From: a virus | DNA length: 29,117 nucleotides | Direction: 5' to 3' (one strand) | Virus record (IMG/VR): IMGVR_UViG_3300020418_000028 | Span: 1 to 29,117 of that record | Shown here: positions 1 to 23,882 of the stretch, piece after piece | Position numbering within the stretch: position 1 is the stretch's first letter | How the letters are laid out: each line of letters starts with the position of its first letter | The notes under the pieces: model-generated | Told to the model about the DNA's origin: nothing | Seen by the model: only the letters and a program-made list of their open reading frames with translations | The model's database searches: none | Program-made: the position numbers and the translations under genes

Positions 1-2480
1 CCTCACTATCACCTGGCACACCAGGTCAAACTCATAGTCTATCTGTAACTGATGAAACTGGTATCGTAAGAGTTCCTACAACTTATGGTACACGTAATGT
101 TCCTACACCTATATCTGGTGGTATCAGTACTGCTGACATCTTCTTCGGTGATACTTCAGGTGCATATGCTGAGATTATAAGAATACAGGACAACCTTGCA
201 GATATCCTATACGCTGTTAAGTGGATGCCACTAACAGTTACAAGTGATCCTGAGACATTTGTTAACGGTGAAGAAGTTGTTAAGACTGGTGCTACAGGAA
301 ATAAAGCTACAGTTCTTGCTACAGACAATGCAACATATGCAAAACTTATCATTACTTCTGGAAACATTCAAGAAGGTGATGCTATTGAGGGATCTACTTC
401 TGGTGCTACAGGAAATATTGGAACTGGTGCTCACGATCGCTTGTTAATTAACATCAAGCAAGGTGACTTTATTGCTACCGATATAATTTACGCTAAGAAT
501 GGAACCAGTAAGGCAGATGCATTGATCGTACGTAATAACGATGGTGCTCTACTTGATAATCAGTCTGGACGTGTCACATTCGACATTGAGACTGTTAAAG
601 GTAACTTTACACCTGGCGATGTTATTTACGGTTCTGTTACTGATCAAATTATTGAAATTGAAGGATTTAATATCCTACCTGGATTTGGTGAATATATTCA
701 CTCAACATTCATTACAAGAATTACATATAACTCACTTGTAACTGACTTTGGTGTAGATGATACATTCAAGGTTGGTGATACTCTTCAGATGCAGAACGCA
801 GGTCAGTCTGTTGGACATACATTTATCGTTACTGAACACGATGCTGATAATAATTACGTATACCTTGCAAATGAAGAAGGTAGATACGTGGGTATTGGTG
901 ATGATTTGACTGTAATTGCTGGCGATACTGCATATCAACTTGCGAAGATTCCACCTGGTTCTAACTTCCCAAGTGTTACAACTTCTGCAATCGTCGCTGT
1001 AGACATCTCAAACACAACTGCTTATGGAAGAATCGAAAAAATTGAACAAATTGGTTTACGTGCGATCATTCATTTGGGTGATACTTCTGGAACATTCGTT
1101 AAGAATGCTCAAATCATCGGTGATTATGGATTCAGAGGTGCTTGCTCAGTTGCGAAGACACTACGTGGTCGTGTTAGAAGATACTTCAGAGGATTTGATG
1201 GTGAGACTAAGGACTTCAAGTTAACTACTGGTAACGGTACTGCATACTTCCCAGATCCAGCTGGTCATATGATGATCTTCGTGAACGGTATTCTACAACC
1301 ACCAGGCGGTAGTAACGCATTCACTGCATTCTCTGACAACATTCAGTTCACTGAAGCACCTGCAATCAACTCTACCTTCCACGGTGTGTACGTAGGTAAG
1401 TTGAGACAGTTAGATGACATCTCATTTGACTTCGATTCATTACGTAACTCCTTCAACTTGAAGTTAGGTGGAGTGTTCTACTCCTTGACACTAACTGAAG
1501 GTGTACAGTCTAACACTATCAGACCTGAGAACAACATCATCTGTCAGTTGAATGGTGTTATTCAGGAACCAGGCATCGGTTTTGAGATCGTTGGTTCACG
1601 TATTATCTTCTCTGAAGTTCCTCGTGCTGGTTCAACATTCGTTGCATTCTCTTATATTGGTTCTGACGTTGACGTTATTGCTGCAACAGTCGTACCTCCT
1701 ATTGAAGCTGGTGATAGATTGGCAATCGAGGGTGAAGAATTTGAAAGAGAGGTTGCTCTAATTGAGTCTTCTAACTCACTAATTACCTTCGAATACACTG
1801 GTGCTGTTCGTGGACGTAACGCAGATGCCCTTGCAACTATCGAGAAAGGACGCATCATTGAAGCAATTCTAACCAACTCAGGTGATGGTTATACTTCACG
1901 TCCAAACGTTGATGTTATTTCCTCTACTGGTTTCGGTGGTAAGATCAAGGCACTCGTTGGTCTCGCACGTATTGATGTTAAGAATGCAGGTCAAGGTTAT
2001 ACAATGCCTTCTGTTTCAGTCCACAACACTGTCGCAGACGACTTCTTAGGACCTACAGGTGCAGGTGTTAACGGTGGTATCGATATCTACGATCCTAATT
2101 ACGTTCCACCTGGCGAATCTGAAGCAGTCGGTGAATCATTTATCACCATTGAATCACAACCAGTTAACACAACAGTTAACCAAGGTGATCCTGCATCATT
2201 CACCGTGATCGCATCTACAACACCTGCTGGCGGTACTATTAACTATCAGTGGCAGAAGAAGGATTACGGTACTAACGCTTGGATAAATATACCAGGTGCT
2301 ACATCACCTACCTTCAATACACCTGTAACTACTCAGGCAGATGGTGGTGATGAATTTAGAGTCGGACTAACATCAGTCGGTGCAACTCCAACATTATCTC
2401 AATCAGCAGTTCTAACGATTAACATCGGTTCAACTACGGTTGACAACTTCAGTCCAGATCAAATATTTGACGATAACTAA
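1..2480 (+). CDS. Large virion structural protein, C-terminal part (5' end outside window)
   Basis: The reading frame is open from base 3, with no in-frame stop before the first ATG at 225, so the gene starts upstream of the window and the 225 ATG is internal. Visible parts, in order: a region with a GE-x-I-x-G-x-TSGA type repeat (about 249-430); a domain with the motif pairs FVNGILQPPG and LNGVIQEPG (about 1195-1670), which I recall from cyanophage structural proteins; a Gly-rich N-x-G-x-GY repeat (about 1855-2060); and a C-terminal Ig-like domain (about 2143-2445) with the core NYQWQKK. It probably sits on the baseplate or a fibre, exposed to the medium. Its position ahead of gp8 is where T4 has gp7, but I see no gp7 similarity that I can defend. 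The stop overlaps the next start as TAATG. Confidence 0.8.
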   Translation, partial: SLSPGTPGQTHSLSVTDETGIVRVPTTYGTRNVPTPISGGISTADIFFGDTSGAYAEIIRIQDNLADILYAVKWMPLTVTSDPETFVNGEEVVKTGATGNKATVLATDNATYAKLIITSGNIQEGDAIEGSTSGATGNIGTGAHDRLLINIKQGDFIATDIIYAKNGTSKADALIVRNNDGALLDNQSGRVTFDIETVKGNFTPGDVIYGSVTDQIIEIEGFNILPGFGEYIHSTFITRITYNSLVTDFGVDDTFKVGDTLQMQNAGQSVGHTFIVTEHDADNNYVYLANEEGRYVGIGDDLTVIAGDTAYQLAKIPPGSNFPSVTTSAIVAVDISNTTAYGRIEKIEQIGLRAIIHLGDTSGTFVKNAQIIGDYGFRGACSVAKTLRGRVRRYFRGFDGETKDFKLTTGNGTAYFPDPAGHMMIFVNGILQPPGGSNAFTAFSDNIQFTEAPAINSTFHGVYVGKLRQLDDISFDFDSLRNSFNLKLGGVFYSLTLTEGVQSNTIRPENNIICQLNGVIQEPGIGFEIVGSRIIFSEVPRAGSTFVAFSYIGSDVDVIAATVVPPIEAGDRLAIEGEEFEREVALIESSNSLITFEYTGAVRGRNADALATIEKGRIIEAILTNSGDGYTSRPNVDVISSTGFGGKIKALVGLARIDVKNAGQGYTMPSVSVHNTVADDFLGPTGAGVNGGIDIYDPNYVPPGESEAVGESFITIESQPVNTTVNQGDPASFTVIASTTPAGGTINYQWQKKDYGTNAWINIPGATSPTFNTPVTTQADGGDEFRVGLTSVGATPTLSQSAVLTINIGSTTVDNFSPDQIFDDN

Positions 2481-4225
2481 TGTCAGCACAAGGTTCCTAT
2501 AATCCAGCAACAGATATCCTAACAGTAACAGGAGATGGTTTACCTCATCCTGTTGCTAAGGGTACGTTCCCTAATGAGAACAATCTAAATGATGTATCTG
2601 CATATACTTTTAGTCACGCTTTTACATATAGAGGTGGAAATAACACAACTGCTGGTGGTTCTGTACCACTAGGTATCGTTGGAATTTCTGCCAACGGTGT
2701 TGCTTTGTTTAATCCCTCTGCTGGCACTCTTGGAAGTCCTCCATCTGGATTTAATTGGATTGCGTCTGATGCTTTTGGTATGTACAATCCTGGTTCAGAT
2801 ACTGCTGGTGGTCGTCCTAATGTTAATGATCAGTATCATTACATTGATGGTAACTTTCTAACTTCTTGGAAAGTTAATCAGGTGATGGCTGGTTACAATG
2901 ATTATTATGGATTAAGTCAATATCAAGGTGATAATATGCGTCACCCTGATGGTCATTCTAAAATTCTAGGAATGTCATTTGATGGATATCCTATCTACGG
3001 TCCTTATGGATACGACAGTCCATTAGATAATAACTCTCCAGTTAAAATTATGGAGACAGGTTATCAAATGAGAGAAAATATTGCTGCTAATAGACCTGCA
3101 TATGGTACTACTACTGCAAACCCTCCTAAAGGTTCTCTTATGGAGGATTATGAATACAACGTTAGCAAACCAGGGAGACATTTAGATGTTTATAACGGTC
3201 GTTTTTGTCATACTCCTGAGTATCCCAATGGGACTTTTGCTTACTTCGTCACAATCTGGAATGATGAAACGGAGACGAAAACGTACGTAGTCACTGTATC
3301 AAGTGAAAGTGATGGTAATAAGTACCGTTTAGATGGAGTTTTATATCCCAACTTAACATTTATTAAAGGAAGTACATATAAGTTCATACAAGAAGACAGT
3401 ACAAATCTTACTCACCCTATTAGATTTTCAACAACACAACACGGTATTCACGGTGGTGGAGTTGAGTATACAAGCGGAGTAACTCACGTAGGTACACCAG
3501 GTCAATCTGGTGCGTATACCGAGTTTGTTGTACCACAAGATGCACCAAACTTGTACTACTATTGTCACAACCATAATGGTATGGCTGGTACTGGTGGTGC
3601 CATTACTGTAGTTCCTAATCGTTATCTAACTCCTAAGTATCCGTATATATTTGGACTTTCTTCTAAAGAGACGCTAAATATACCAGCAAATCAAGGAATT
3701 GGTCAAGCTGCGTCGGGTGGTGGAGATAGTGGAGGTTCGACTCCAACTGATCCTCCTAGTATCATTATTACCAACCAACCTACCAATGCAACCATTGCTG
3801 ATGGAGGTTCACAAACTTTCAGTTTGTTAGCTGTAATTGAACCTGAAGATGGAACAAAAAATTATCAATGGCAAGTATCTACCGATGGTGGATTTGCTTG
3901 GTCTAATATAAGTGGTGCAAATGCATCGACATATACATTGACAGCAGCAGCATTTATGACTGGTTATCGATACAGATGTATCGTTACAGGTCCTATAGGT
4001 GAAGCACAGCAAGCACAAAACTCACCGCTTGCTAGTAACTTAGTTATTCTCACCGTAACAGGTGGAACGAGTCAAACCGATACTTCTGGTGTACTGAGGT
4101 GGGATAGTAGTATTGGTAAATTTGATATGACATCGATACCCTTTGATAGGGACAATAATAATCCCGACTTTGCTAGAAACGACGTAAGGTTAGATCAAAC
4201 CAATTTTGAATTCGACCTCACATAA
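2480..4225 (+). CDS. YHYH-domain, cupredoxin-like and Ig-like virion protein
   Basis: This 581-residue protein has three recognisable parts. Residues about 28-265 fit the YHYH family: QYHY at 118-121, HPDGH at 155-159, FDGYPIYGPYGY at 167-178, then LDVYNGRF and TPEYPNGTFAYF near 235-256. Residues about 265-380 look like a cupredoxin, with HPIRF at 312-316 and YCHNHNGM at 361-368. This gives a type-1 copper set of His312, Cys362, His365 and Met368, with the Cys-x2-His-x2-Met spacing known from amicyanin. Residues about 425-530 are an Ig-like domain (NYQWQVS), after a Gly/Ser/Pro linker. There is no signal peptide, which fits a virion protein assembled in the cytoplasm. The start overlaps the upstream stop (TAATG). 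Its role on the particle is unknown; metal binding and host-surface contact are inferences. Confidence 0.85.
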   Translation: MSAQGSYNPATDILTVTGDGLPHPVAKGTFPNENNLNDVSAYTFSHAFTYRGGNNTTAGGSVPLGIVGISANGVALFNPSAGTLGSPPSGFNWIASDAFGMYNPGSDTAGGRPNVNDQYHYIDGNFLTSWKVNQVMAGYNDYYGLSQYQGDNMRHPDGHSKILGMSFDGYPIYGPYGYDSPLDNNSPVKIMETGYQMRENIAANRPAYGTTTANPPKGSLMEDYEYNVSKPGRHLDVYNGRFCHTPEYPNGTFAYFVTIWNDETETKTYVVTVSSESDGNKYRLDGVLYPNLTFIKGSTYKFIQEDSTNLTHPIRFSTTQHGIHGGGVEYTSGVTHVGTPGQSGAYTEFVVPQDAPNLYYYCHNHNGMAGTGGAITVVPNRYLTPKYPYIFGLSSKETLNIPANQGIGQAASGGGDSGGSTPTDPPSIIITNQPTNATIADGGSQTFSLLAVIEPEDGTKNYQWQVSTDGGFAWSNISGANASTYTLTAAAFMTGYRYRCIVTGPIGEAQQAQNSPLASNLVILTVTGGTSQTDTSGVLRWDSSIGKFDMTSIPFDRDNNNPDFARNDVRLDQTNFEFDLT

Positions 4226-4228
4226 ATA
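4221..4228 (+). promoter_or_regulatory. T4-type late promoter, CATAAATA
   Basis: The octamer matches the NATAAATA late promoter pattern of T4-like phages. It ends 24 bases before the ATG at 4253 and overlaps the stop codon of the upstream gene. The spacing is close to that of the other late promoters in this window. Confidence 0.65.
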
Positions 4229-4252
4229 AAAACGTAGAATAACCCCACTACT

Positions 4253-5914
4253 ATGGCTAAACAGAATCTTAATATTGGTGTAAGTGCCAATGATGGAACA
4301 GGTGATACCCTGAGAGATGGTGCTATAAAAGTTAATAACGTTATTAACGAAATGTATGCGGCTCTTGGAGATAATACAAACTTACAAATTTCAATCGGAT
4401 CACCTTCAACCAACCAAGTCCTAAAATGGACAGGTTCGGTATTTACCGAGGGACAACTTGCTGCATCTAATCTGACAGACGTGGACGTTAGTGGGGTTAC
4501 TAATGGACAGGTTCTTAAGTGGAATACTGCAAATGCTCGCTGGCAGCCAGGCGACGATCTACAAGGAGCAGGTGGTGGTGGATCTGCTATTAACAACTTG
4601 ACCAATAATGGTTCTGGTAATGTTGTTATACAAACTCATTTCTTACCTAATAGTGACAATACATACGACTTAGGATCTCCTACATTACGTTTTAGGGATG
4701 CTTACTTGTATAATGCTTCATTATGGTTAGGTGAAACTGCACTCTCTACTGATCCTACAACTCAAGAGATGCATCGTAAGAAACGTCAAGAGCATACTGT
4801 ACAAGCTATTGACACTGGTGCTACTCGTACTATAACATCTAAATTGTCTTCTGAAGATTCAACACAAGAAGAAAAGTTTAGATTGCGTTTCAATGCTATG
4901 AAAGCTGGCACTAAGTTGCATATTGAAGATAGTGTTGGTGCAAAGGTAGAAGTAGAATTCACTTCATTCACTGCTGAAGCAGGTGCTGCTAGAGGATATA
5001 TCCAAGTTGCTGCTGTTGGTGACAACCAATCACAAGAAATTGATGCAACAAGTGCTGTTAAGATTACATCTATCAACCGTATGTTATCTGAAGATGAAAC
5101 AGGTAAGGTTGATATTAGTGGACAAGATTTAGATTTTGGTGGTAGTAATAAACTATTCTTTGATGACTCTGGTGTTTTAGAACTTACTGGATCTAAGATT
5201 CGTTTTGGTGCTTCTGGTTCTAAGAAACTTATAGAATTTGATGGTAATGATAACTTAGTTCTCGATCAAGATACTGAAATACAATTTGGAACAACACATA
5301 AATTGAAGATGGACTCATCTGGTAACCTGACGGTACCCGATGGGGAAATCAGGTTTGGTACTTCTGCGAGGAAACTTAAGGTTGACTCTGATGGAAACCT
5401 TGAACTTCCTGCTGATGGTGAGATCAAGATTGGTACCAAGCGTATGAAGATCGGTAGTAACGGTACTTTAGACGTTGCTAACGATGGTACTAACTTCGCT
5501 GAAGTTGGTGGTGGATTCCAAACTCAGATTGGTAATGCTCCAGCTGGTGCATCTATCATTAAGGGTCACGCTAATGCGACTGTATACAAACCTTCACCTG
5601 CGTTTTTATACAGGTTTACTGCATCAGGTCAGTCTGCATACTTAGTAAACGGACCTGGCTTAACAACCAACACATCGAATGCATCATTAGTATTCCATAG
5701 AGGATTTACTTATGATCTTCATAACCAAGCAGGTGGCGTACATCCGTTGAGACTTCAGTCTACAACTGGTACTTCTGGTACACCGTATACTACAGGTATT
5801 TCGGGTGATCAAACAGGTATGCAAGAATTTGTTGTACCTATGGATGCACCAAATACTCTGTATCTACAATGTACTGCACACACCGATATGATGTGCACCA
5901 TTACTGTAAAATGA
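4253..5914 (+). CDS. Tail-fibre-like protein with beta-repeats and a C-terminal cupredoxin-like domain
   Basis: This is a 553-residue protein. The N-terminus (MAKQNLNIG...NDGTGDTLRDG) is a type I associate with cyanophage fibre and structural proteins, and probably anchors the protein to the virion. Residues about 45-110 carry two VLKW repeats and a Gly-rich hinge. Residues about 288-412 hold roughly five repeats of about 22 residues with the pattern GEIRFGT...KLKVDSDGNLELP, which suggests a trimeric beta-helical shaft. Residues about 450-553 look like a cupredoxin: HPLRL with His497, then Cys540, His543 and Met546 in Cys-x2-His-x2-Met spacing. The stretch EFVVPMDAPN-x-LY matches the same part of the upstream protein, so the two domains are probably paralogous. 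A late promoter lies just upstream, but I see no good Shine-Dalgarno sequence. Confidence 0.83.
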   Translation: MAKQNLNIGVSANDGTGDTLRDGAIKVNNVINEMYAALGDNTNLQISIGSPSTNQVLKWTGSVFTEGQLAASNLTDVDVSGVTNGQVLKWNTANARWQPGDDLQGAGGGGSAINNLTNNGSGNVVIQTHFLPNSDNTYDLGSPTLRFRDAYLYNASLWLGETALSTDPTTQEMHRKKRQEHTVQAIDTGATRTITSKLSSEDSTQEEKFRLRFNAMKAGTKLHIEDSVGAKVEVEFTSFTAEAGAARGYIQVAAVGDNQSQEIDATSAVKITSINRMLSEDETGKVDISGQDLDFGGSNKLFFDDSGVLELTGSKIRFGASGSKKLIEFDGNDNLVLDQDTEIQFGTTHKLKMDSSGNLTVPDGEIRFGTSARKLKVDSDGNLELPADGEIKIGTKRMKIGSNGTLDVANDGTNFAEVGGGFQTQIGNAPAGASIIKGHANATVYKPSPAFLYRFTASGQSAYLVNGPGLTTNTSNASLVFHRGFTYDLHNQAGGVHPLRLQSTTGTSGTPYTTGISGDQTGMQEFVVPMDAPNTLYLQCTAHTDMMCTITVK

Positions 5915-5917
5915 TAA

Positions 5918-7792
5918 ATGACAAGAACCGTCCCAGGCTCAGGAGCAAAAATTGAACCACTCTTTAACTCTATATTTGGTGTTCGAGATGTTTATGTGGT
6001 GGATGGTGGTAGTGGCTATAACAGCTCTGATCCTCCCAAGCTAACAATCGCGAACTGCGGTACTCCAATCCGTGAAGCAATCTTAAGTCCTGTTATTGAA
6101 AATGGGCAGATTGCTTCAGTTAACGTTTTGGATCCTGGTGAAGGTTATGATCCATTTAGAATTGATATTGAGACAGAAGGTAATGGTACAGGTGCAGTAG
6201 CAAAAGCAATTTTGTGGGAAGAAGATCAATATGACTCACTAGGAAATCTTCTTGCACCAGCTGGATCGATTCAATACATACAAGTTTTATCTAACGGAGA
6301 CGAATATTATTCAGCAGAAACCAGTGCTCAAGTAAAAGGTGGTGGTGGATCTGGTGCTGAACTACGTCCTGTTGTGGGATTAGTTACTGGTTTGTCATTA
6401 GAACAAGCTGGTGCTAATTATGAGATAGGGGATGTCAACCTCATAGTCTCTGGTGGCGGGGGTCAAGGTGCTACAGGTGTTACCGAAGTTAGTGAATTCG
6501 GTATTGTTAAAAATATAAACATATCAAATCAAGGTGAGTTCTATGAAACTCCTCCTGTCATTCTATTAAATGGTGGTGGAGGATCTGGTGGTAAAGCAAA
6601 GGCAACAGTAAATCTTGGTGCTATTACAAACATTGAGATTACTAATCCTGGTGGTGGTTATTCTAGTAACCCACAGGTTATCTTTACTAGAAATACTAAC
6701 TTGACAAAAGAGTCAAGAACCAGACAATCATTTAACTCAACAATATATGATATAAGTGGTCTTCTTAAAGACGTTGATGAAAATGATGAAACTATATTTG
6801 TACAAACAACTGCTCCTTATCCAGGCTCAGGTAAAATCCTAGTCGGTAGGGAGGTTATTCGTTATACAGGTAAAACACTCACATCATTTACTGGATGTGA
6901 CCGTGCTTTAAACTTTAGATATGATCAAAAAATTATCTTAGATAGTCTTTCTGATCTTGGTGGTATATCCCAATATAATTTCAATGTTGGAGATAGAGTT
7001 GTTAGAACTAATGAAAGTTCTGGTAATAAGATTGCTAGAGTATATGATTGGGTTCCATCTGAGAGAGCTCTCTATCTTGTCTTTGAGGTAGATGAACTTG
7101 CTTTCATCGATGGTGGTTCTTCAAAAATTGTTTCACAGGTTATTGACTTTACTGGTGGTGTCGCTGCTGCATCTGCTACAGGTGTTGAACCACACGTATT
7201 AGTTGATGCACCTGGTGAAGAGATTATCACTTTGACTGTACCTATTCAGAATATCCCCGATAAAGCATTCGAAGATGTCGCTGAATTAGATGGTGCAGGT
7301 GATGGTATCCCTGACCTGGTAAATACTAATACCGATTTCGAAGGTGAAATCAATTTAGATGGTGGTATTGCATCATCTTTATATGGTATTGAAGAGACAT
7401 TAGGTGGTACTAACACAACTCTGTTTGCAGTTGGTGACCAAATGACTGATGGTTCTAAACCAGCTCTTTCACCCACTGTATCCACAGCAGGTGAACTTGG
7501 TGATGGTGATTATCATTTTGCTTATGTAGATTTTGAGTTCCGTAGTCTTGATGAAAATGGTTCTCAAAACTTCAGTGTTGATGAGACTGTGACTGGTTCT
7601 ATTACTGGAATCACTGCTACAGTTCTTACTTGGGATGCAACAACAAAAATATTAAGAGTCAAATCCGTTGTTGAAAACAATGGAAATTCACTCTGGAATG
7701 GCAACGAATTAATCACTGGTTCTTCTACTGGTGCGGTAGGTACAATCAAGCAAATCTTGTATCCATCGAGCATTCGAAACGAGCCTGATTAA
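5918..7792 (+). CDS. Gly-rich solenoid-repeat virion protein
   Basis: This 624-residue protein has no enzyme motif. Residues about 24-265 are repeats built on (D/N)-x-G-x-GY, then P-x-V/L-x-(I/V), then GGGGSGA-x-A, then a turn and the next strand; at least five units are visible. This pattern suggests a beta-solenoid or beta-prism shaft. The middle part contains ILVGREVIRYTGKT and TGCDRALN, which I associate with marine phage structural proteins. The C-terminus (about 7570-7765) carries a paired module with DETVTGSITGITATVLTWD followed by ELITGSSTGAVG, which also occurs in other proteins of the window. The gene starts 3 bases after the upstream stop. It is probably a baseplate or fibre component made together with gp8; the exact role is unknown. 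Confidence 0.78.
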   Translation: MTRTVPGSGAKIEPLFNSIFGVRDVYVVDGGSGYNSSDPPKLTIANCGTPIREAILSPVIENGQIASVNVLDPGEGYDPFRIDIETEGNGTGAVAKAILWEEDQYDSLGNLLAPAGSIQYIQVLSNGDEYYSAETSAQVKGGGGSGAELRPVVGLVTGLSLEQAGANYEIGDVNLIVSGGGGQGATGVTEVSEFGIVKNINISNQGEFYETPPVILLNGGGGSGGKAKATVNLGAITNIEITNPGGGYSSNPQVIFTRNTNLTKESRTRQSFNSTIYDISGLLKDVDENDETIFVQTTAPYPGSGKILVGREVIRYTGKTLTSFTGCDRALNFRYDQKIILDSLSDLGGISQYNFNVGDRVVRTNESSGNKIARVYDWVPSERALYLVFEVDELAFIDGGSSKIVSQVIDFTGGVAAASATGVEPHVLVDAPGEEIITLTVPIQNIPDKAFEDVAELDGAGDGIPDLVNTNTDFEGEINLDGGIASSLYGIEETLGGTNTTLFAVGDQMTDGSKPALSPTVSTAGELGDGDYHFAYVDFEFRSLDENGSQNFSVDETVTGSITGITATVLTWDATTKILRVKSVVENNGNSLWNGNELITGSSTGAVGTIKQILYPSSIRNEPD

Positions 7793-23561: not shown

Positions 23562-23882
23562 ATGAAACCATTCCCACTTAAATACGTACCGCTATTATTT
23601 GTACTTTGTTGCATAGCATCAATTACATTGAACGTAGCACCTGTACTTGCCAATCACTTACCAGTGATGTATGTACAAGTACCTCAGTGGGCAGATGATT
23701 GGGCAGTGTGTGCTGTAGATATACCTGACGCAAAATGTCATTGGTATGTTATGGCACCTGACAACACATTCGGTGAAGGATTCGACTGGGAGACTGCTCC
23801 TTGGTTCGATGCCAATGGTTTAAATGATGTTGCTCCTATGCAAAAAGAAACTGTTGTACAACAAATTCAATATCAAAAGTAA
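23562..23882 (+). CDS. Small exported protein with N-terminal signal peptide
   Basis: This is a 106-residue protein. The first 30 residues have a Lys-containing start, a hydrophobic core (VPLLFVLCCIASITL) and an APVLA-N stretch that fits signal peptidase I cleavage after residue 30. A stable membrane anchor is the alternative. The mature part is acidic and Trp-rich, with two cysteines (Cys50 and Cys59) that could form a disulfide outside the cytoplasm. No lipobox is evident. It lies between the fibre gene and gp13, and its stop overlaps the gp13 start as TAATG, so it is made late with the neck proteins. I do not recognise the family. Possible roles are in the periplasm, in the envelope during lysis, or in superinfection exclusion; none is shown. 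Confidence 0.72.
   Translation: MKPFPLKYVPLLFVLCCIASITLNVAPVLANHLPVMYVQVPQWADDWAVCAVDIPDAKCHWYVMAPDNTFGEGFDWETAPWFDANGLNDVAPMQKETVVQQIQYQK

Follow-up and report, generated by a model that had tools for sequence, protein, structure and literature searches.

Does the tail of a marine phage carry copper? The question is raised by two adjoining plus-strand genes in a virus record of 29,117 bases, IMGVR_UViG_3300020418_000028, whose whole length is referred to here as the window. The genes encode proteins of 581 and 553 residues, and each holds one cupredoxin-like domain with a complete His, Cys-x2-His-x2-Met set. The initial annotation, made from the DNA letters, had read these sets as paralogous copper sites with the spacing of amicyanin. 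Our comparison of homologues suggests that the tails of ocean phages do carry copper. The genes, domains and putative ligands locate as follows.

2480..4225, plus strand: 581-residue baseplate/virion-type protein with YHYH, cupredoxin and immunoglobulin-like (Ig-like) domains (open reading frame (ORF); Pfam YHYH; PHROG25852 'virion structural protein', PHROG708 'baseplate wedge subunit')
3272..3628, plus strand: predicted cupredoxin-like domain 1, residues 265-383 of the 581-residue protein (AlphaFold2; Foldseek)
3413..3415, plus strand: candidate ligand His312 (invariant in the YHYH-type family alignment)
3563..3583, plus strand: candidate ligand loop Cys362-x2-His365-x2-Met368, CHNHNGM (Cys, His and Met invariant in the YHYH-type family)
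4253..5914, plus strand: 553-residue gp9-like baseplate wedge / tail-fibre connector (PF07880, E = 2.6e-10; PHROG677, E = 2e-66)
5603..5911, plus strand: predicted cupredoxin-like domain 2, C-terminal, residues 451-553 of the 553-residue protein (AlphaFold2; Foldseek)
5741..5743, plus strand: candidate ligand His497 (invariant in the gp9-type family alignment)
5870..5890, plus strand: candidate ligand loop Cys540-x2-His543-x2-Met546, CTAHTDM (Cys, His and Met invariant in the gp9-type family)

Predicted fold of the two domains

The ligand residues (His312, Cys362, His365 and Met368; His497, Cys540, His543 and Met546) lie exactly where they had first been assigned, and the accompanying motifs, HPIRF with EFVVPQDAPNLY in the 581-residue protein and HPLRL with EFVVPMDAPNTLY in the 553-residue protein, are present as described. 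A small correction concerns the end of the EFVVP-type motif, which had been written DAPN-x-LY; the actual segments are DAPNLY and DAPNTLY, and the rest of the motif stands. Each protein has a single CxxHxxM pattern, and none of the five other large window ORFs examined has one. By chance, the pattern appears in shuffled sequences with P = 0.001 (581 residues) and 0.0005 (553 residues).

Sequence searches against solved structures gave little. With a single YHYH-type domain, a search of the PDB sequences found nothing significant. The profile of the gp9-type domain reached a nitrite reductase chain, 2vmj (loop CTPHPFM), at a marginal E = 9e-4, in an alignment that matches up Cys, His and Met. 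These null or marginal results called for a fold search. We therefore built AlphaFold2 models from alignments of 16 (domain 1) and 21 (domain 2) sequences. The mean predicted local distance difference test score is 88.4 for domain 1 and 92.3 for domain 2, with core blocks at about 95-98, and both models are all beta except for one short helix. In Foldseek searches of the PDB, rusticyanin is the best match of both domains (E = 2e-4 for domain 1 and 3.6e-5 for domain 2, each with probability 1.00). Behind it come copper nitrite reductase, laccases, amicyanin, plastocyanin and pseudoazurin, and the probability is again 1.00 for the nitrite reductase, amicyanin and plastocyanin. Among the 50 PDB matches listed per search, all are copper proteins except one factor VIII chain, itself of cupredoxin-type fold. 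The models thus agree with the Greek-key cupredoxin that had been proposed, and the domains almost certainly have this fold, as far as prediction can tell.

The family libraries Pfam, NCBIfam and PHROGs do not name the domain, and no Pfam match to it reaches threshold. The copper-binding family PF00127 does not match the window proteins even at E <= 1, and it weakly matches 4 of 20 relatives (best E = 8e-4). The viral models of BFVD contain 72 domain matches at E <= 0.001, and none of the 50 listed is named as a copper protein.

Conservation and joint loss of the four ligands

Alignments of the close families have 21 invariant columns in the YHYH type (16 sequences) and 25 in the gp9 type (21 sequences), and these columns include all four ligands. 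For a wider sample, we collected IMG/VR stretches (at least about 600 matching per profile), 83 GTDB genome contigs and, by profile, the whole records of 24 cultured phages. All four ligands are kept by 324 of the 374 distinct aligned domains; two keep three, none keeps two, ten keep one and 38 keep none. Independent loss at the observed site frequencies predicts 221 domains with four, about 124 with three, about 26 with two and 2 with one or none. The ligands are not free to vary, as the reading of copper sites had implied they should not be; where they are not all kept, they are lost together. Thus the four residues appear to act as one unit.

Of the two domains with three ligands, one is cut at the end of its ORF, and the other, from P-RSM6, replaces Met with Gln (HCHQ). 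A second case of Gln for the axial Met (C-x2-H-x2-Q) is found at another locus, L161. Met-to-Gln is a natural type-1 copper variant, as in stellacyanin. We also notice that the loop is longer by one residue in P-HM1 and P-HM2 (CQTHGGGM, CTVHGIGM).

On a tree built with the ligand columns masked, parsimony counts about 11 changes of ligand state, versus 42-48 with shuffled labels; therefore, the loss was repeated, yet always of the whole set. Some of our search patterns held C-x-x-H, which is a possible source of bias, and as a control we dropped every sequence matching such patterns. This leaves 96 domains with four ligands, 2 with three, 0 with two and 49 with one or none, and the two-peaked distribution is unchanged. 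All C-terminal (gp9-type) domains that were classed are intact (103 from IMG/VR, 3 from cultured phages and 12 cellular).

Ligand-free copies as a natural control

Immediately after gp9, the phages Syn9, P-SSM7 and S-SM1 have a gene that encodes 1375-1387 residues and contains a copy of the domain inserted within a split YHYH domain. In this copy all four ligands are gone, whereas the adjacent gp9 keeps its own. The ligand-free copies are still matched by the domain profile, and, judged by this match, the fold therefore seems to persist without the ligands. Where the ligands persist, something other than maintenance of the fold appears to hold them. We regard the ligand-free copy beside an intact gp9 as the strongest sequence evidence for metal binding by the intact copies. 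His-Cys-His-Met, with Gln as the sole other axial residue, is a known type-1 copper signature. The intact copies are likely to hold a real metal site, and the metal, if there is one, is very probably copper.

Virion context and distribution of the domain

The window comes from a T4-like marine phage, kin of the Prochlorococcus and Synechococcus myoviruses; among cultured phages, P-SSM7 gives the nearest DNA match, over gp8 and VrlC. The remaining domains of the two proteins are as follows.

2660..3256, plus strand: YHYH domain (PF14240), residues 61-259 of the 581-residue protein (E = 6e-26, 92 bits versus a cut-off of 25)
3752..4045, plus strand: Ig-like domain, residues about 425-522 of the 581-residue protein (PHROG3995/613 matches; sub-threshold ZirU match)
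4259..4510, plus strand: T4 gp9/gp10 N-terminal domain, residues 3-86 of the 553-residue protein (PF07880)

PHROG677, which the 553-residue protein matches, is labelled 'baseplate wedge tail fiber protein connector', and a homologue in S-TIM5 carries the annotation 'virion structural protein and packaging'. From these family matches, both proteins are assigned to the virion baseplate or tail.

The domain is widespread in marine phages and far from peculiar to the window. Of 50,697 phage records searched by tblastn, 315 contain the gp9-type domain and 139 the YHYH-type one. By organism name, the positive records belong to Synechococcus, Prochlorococcus and other cyanophages, with a few from Pelagibacter, Methylophilales and marine records. 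The carriers include myoviruses, podoviruses (P-SCSP2, P-GSP1), the small-genome pelagiphage Baldr and cyanophage PSS2. The domain is also found on marine bacterial and archaeal contigs of GTDB, some of which may be phage or contaminant pieces. The complete flavobacterial chromosome NZ_OU342399 holds one intact copy in a giant repeat protein of 2807 residues, open at both ends of the locus, which raises the possibility that adhesion modules pass between phages and marine bacteria. The domain partners are of adhesion type: YHYH, Ig-like, tail-fibre proteins and the flavobacterial giant repeat protein.

The two copies of the window are paralogous, as had been proposed: one profile picks up both. 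They are ancient paralogues, 2.77 apart in the tree, and each is closest to its positional counterpart in other phages, at a distance of 0.07-0.3. Since the two domains of the window are not sisters, a recent tandem duplication is ruled out.

Three neighbours are recorded here. The 751-residue protein (225..2480) and the adjacent 581-residue protein (2480..4225) both end in C-terminal Ig-like domains matching PHROGs 613, 3995 and 25852. The 624-residue ORF (5918..7792) matches mainly positions 773-1252 of PHROG708, its C-terminal part, and the window phage therefore seems to be without the N-terminal half there. A 106-residue protein (23562..23882), just before the neck gene, matches PHROG14182 'esterase' (E = 1.5e-47).

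Relation to known cupredoxins and metal-binding tail proteins

The phage domains resemble rusticyanin, amicyanin and plastocyanin in their predicted fold, in the order and identity of the four ligands and in the aromatic residues just before the Cys. These proteins are small soluble electron carriers, whereas the phage domain is part of tail proteins and shares about 13-20% identity with them in the aligned region. The amicyanin spacing suggested at first was right in part. The length of the C-x2-H-x2-M loop is that of amicyanin, whereas the distance from His to Cys is longer, 50 residues in domain 1 and 43 in domain 2, versus 39 from His53 to Cys92 of amicyanin; therefore, the amicyanin spacing holds for the loop alone. 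With this spacing, and as a domain of 581- and 553-residue proteins rather than a soluble protein of about 105 residues, identity with amicyanin is ruled out. We thus place the domain among the cupredoxin types, apart from amicyanin, and regard its structural setting as new.

Cyanophages are known to encode a cupredoxin, PetE (plastocyanin), as an auxiliary metabolic gene (PMC3037559). PetE has a gene of its own, derived from the host and about 108-123 codons long, and is a soluble protein serving photosynthetic electron flow, whereas the phage domain is fused to baseplate proteins and is much more distant in sequence; architecture and size rule out that the two are the same.

Metals on phage tails have been described in other forms. 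Examples are the iron-binding HxH tail fibres (T4 gp37, R22Y) and the Ferrojan horse hypothesis, with tail metals proposed to be relevant to marine trace metals and adsorption (PMC11705849). In these fibres, octahedral Fe lies between the His pairs of trimers, in contrast to the single-chain His-Cys-His-Met site here. The YHYH domain of phage baseplates is a predicted metal-dependent hydrolase with conserved His and a predicted Zn site, according to a jumbo-phage survey (PMC7824862) that does not mention cupredoxin. YHYH is a separate domain of the 581-residue protein, with its own predicted Zn site. The 553-residue protein is like T4 gp9 in its N-terminal family (PF07880) and in PHROG677, and differs in its C-terminal domain, which is cupredoxin-like with a copper ligand set. 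Such a domain is not known as a feature of T4 gp9. A literature search that combined cupredoxin or plastocyanin with phage tails, baseplates and fibres found no virion cupredoxin, with most subscription journals and preprints outside its scope.

Favoured model and alternative explanations

We favour a type-1 copper site that the tail uses as a module for adhesion or as a joint, with a probability of roughly 0.55. Each domain would bind one copper ion through His-Cys-His-Met in type-1 geometry. In the gp9-like protein, the cupredoxin domain takes the place of the C-terminal portion of the T4 connector, at the attachment joint of the tail fibres; in the 581-residue protein, it comes after the YHYH domain. 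The apo domain would fold in the cytoplasm, and copper would be taken up at high affinity from the lysate or seawater, after assembly or release. The bound metal may then lock the loops at the host- or fibre-facing end of a beta-sandwich module. The analysis shows the sequence, the predicted fold, the joint retention of the ligands and the membership in baseplate families; we infer copper as the metal, the time of its loading and the structural or adhesive role. In T4, the C-terminal part of gp9 meets the long tail fibre. The reuse of the domain with many partners of adhesion type, and its place at this part of gp9, lead us to prefer a metal-locked joint or adhesion module, and a structural or adhesive role seems somewhat more probable than a redox one.

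Several points weigh against this explanation. Against solved cupredoxins, the TM-scores reach only about 0.5, and the root-mean-square deviations are large over long gapped alignments. A proline usually follows the first His of the phage domain, unlike in rusticyanin, amicyanin and plastocyanin; in classical sites this position is Asn or Ser. Assembly of the virion takes place in the cytoplasm, which has negligible free copper. Met is kept more strictly than a metal with a purely structural function would require, which leaves room for a redox role.

A redox-active virion copper would exchange electrons with reductants of the host surface or seawater; it would buffer redox or act as a switch that sets off fibre movement or irreversible adsorption. 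In 324 of 326 intact or near-intact domains the type-1 set is complete, axial Met included, Gln is the only axial change seen, and the nearest folds are electron carriers or type-1 domains. However, we identified no partner domain or conserved docking surface, many tail proteins of unrelated kinds, as well as giant proteins of bacteria, contain the domain, and the same region of the baseplate tolerates ligand-free copies in a neighbouring gene. We consider this role possible, with the odds against it.

The ligands might instead be conserved for a reason other than copper, such as another metal (zinc) or a metal-free hydrogen-bond or thiol network, with the virion domain remaining apo. Cytoplasmic assembly makes copper loading non-trivial, and the tail metals known from T4 fibres are Fe at HxH motifs, as cited in PMC11705849. 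In contrast, a cupredoxin fold with H and C-x2-H-x2-M is the classical type-1 copper set, and all-or-none loss together with Met-to-Gln suits a copper site, not a general packing role. This explanation is unlikely.

A more ambitious proposal places many functional type-1 copper centres at the tail-fibre joint of each marine phage particle, as a redox- or copper-gated attachment switch, and makes virions a pool of copper ligands in seawater. We find it doubtful.

The copper site could also make cyanophage adsorption light-dependent, gated in redox state by photosynthetic activity. P-HM2, which shows no adsorption in the dark (PMC7112961), has 5 domain matches, and P-SSP7, which infects in the dark, has 0. 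Three phages, however, are no statistical test, and intact domains are found in pelagiphages and Methylophilales phages, whose hosts are not photosynthetic. S-PM2, reportedly the phage tested for light-dependent adsorption by Jia et al. 2010, has only a degenerate copy. For P-HM1, no report of dark adsorption was found in the literature searched. Checked on P-HM2, P-HM1, P-SSP7 and S-PM2, light-gated adsorption is not supported, since the S-PM2 copy is degenerate, and we judge it highly improbable. Equally hard to credit is a Cys-His-Met motif that arose by chance in a virion domain of an ordinary kind, Ig-like or jelly-roll. Tail proteins commonly contain beta-sandwich domains, and this one is named in no library, but the fold search, the ligand statistics and the shuffles refute it.

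Implications for marine phages

If the sites of the favoured type-1 copper module hold copper, they represent a metalloprotein class on virus particles that is named in no library searched and is common to some of the most abundant ocean phages. The T4 baseplate has 18 copies of gp9. By this stoichiometry, gp9 alone would give each particle 18 coppers or more. Because ligands are lost all or none, beside copies that stay intact, nature offers an experiment on the purpose of the copper. The finding, if true, would also bear on the annotation of many phage genes now called 'hypothetical' or 'structural', on how phage tails recognise and hold their hosts, and on the copper chemistry of the surface ocean.

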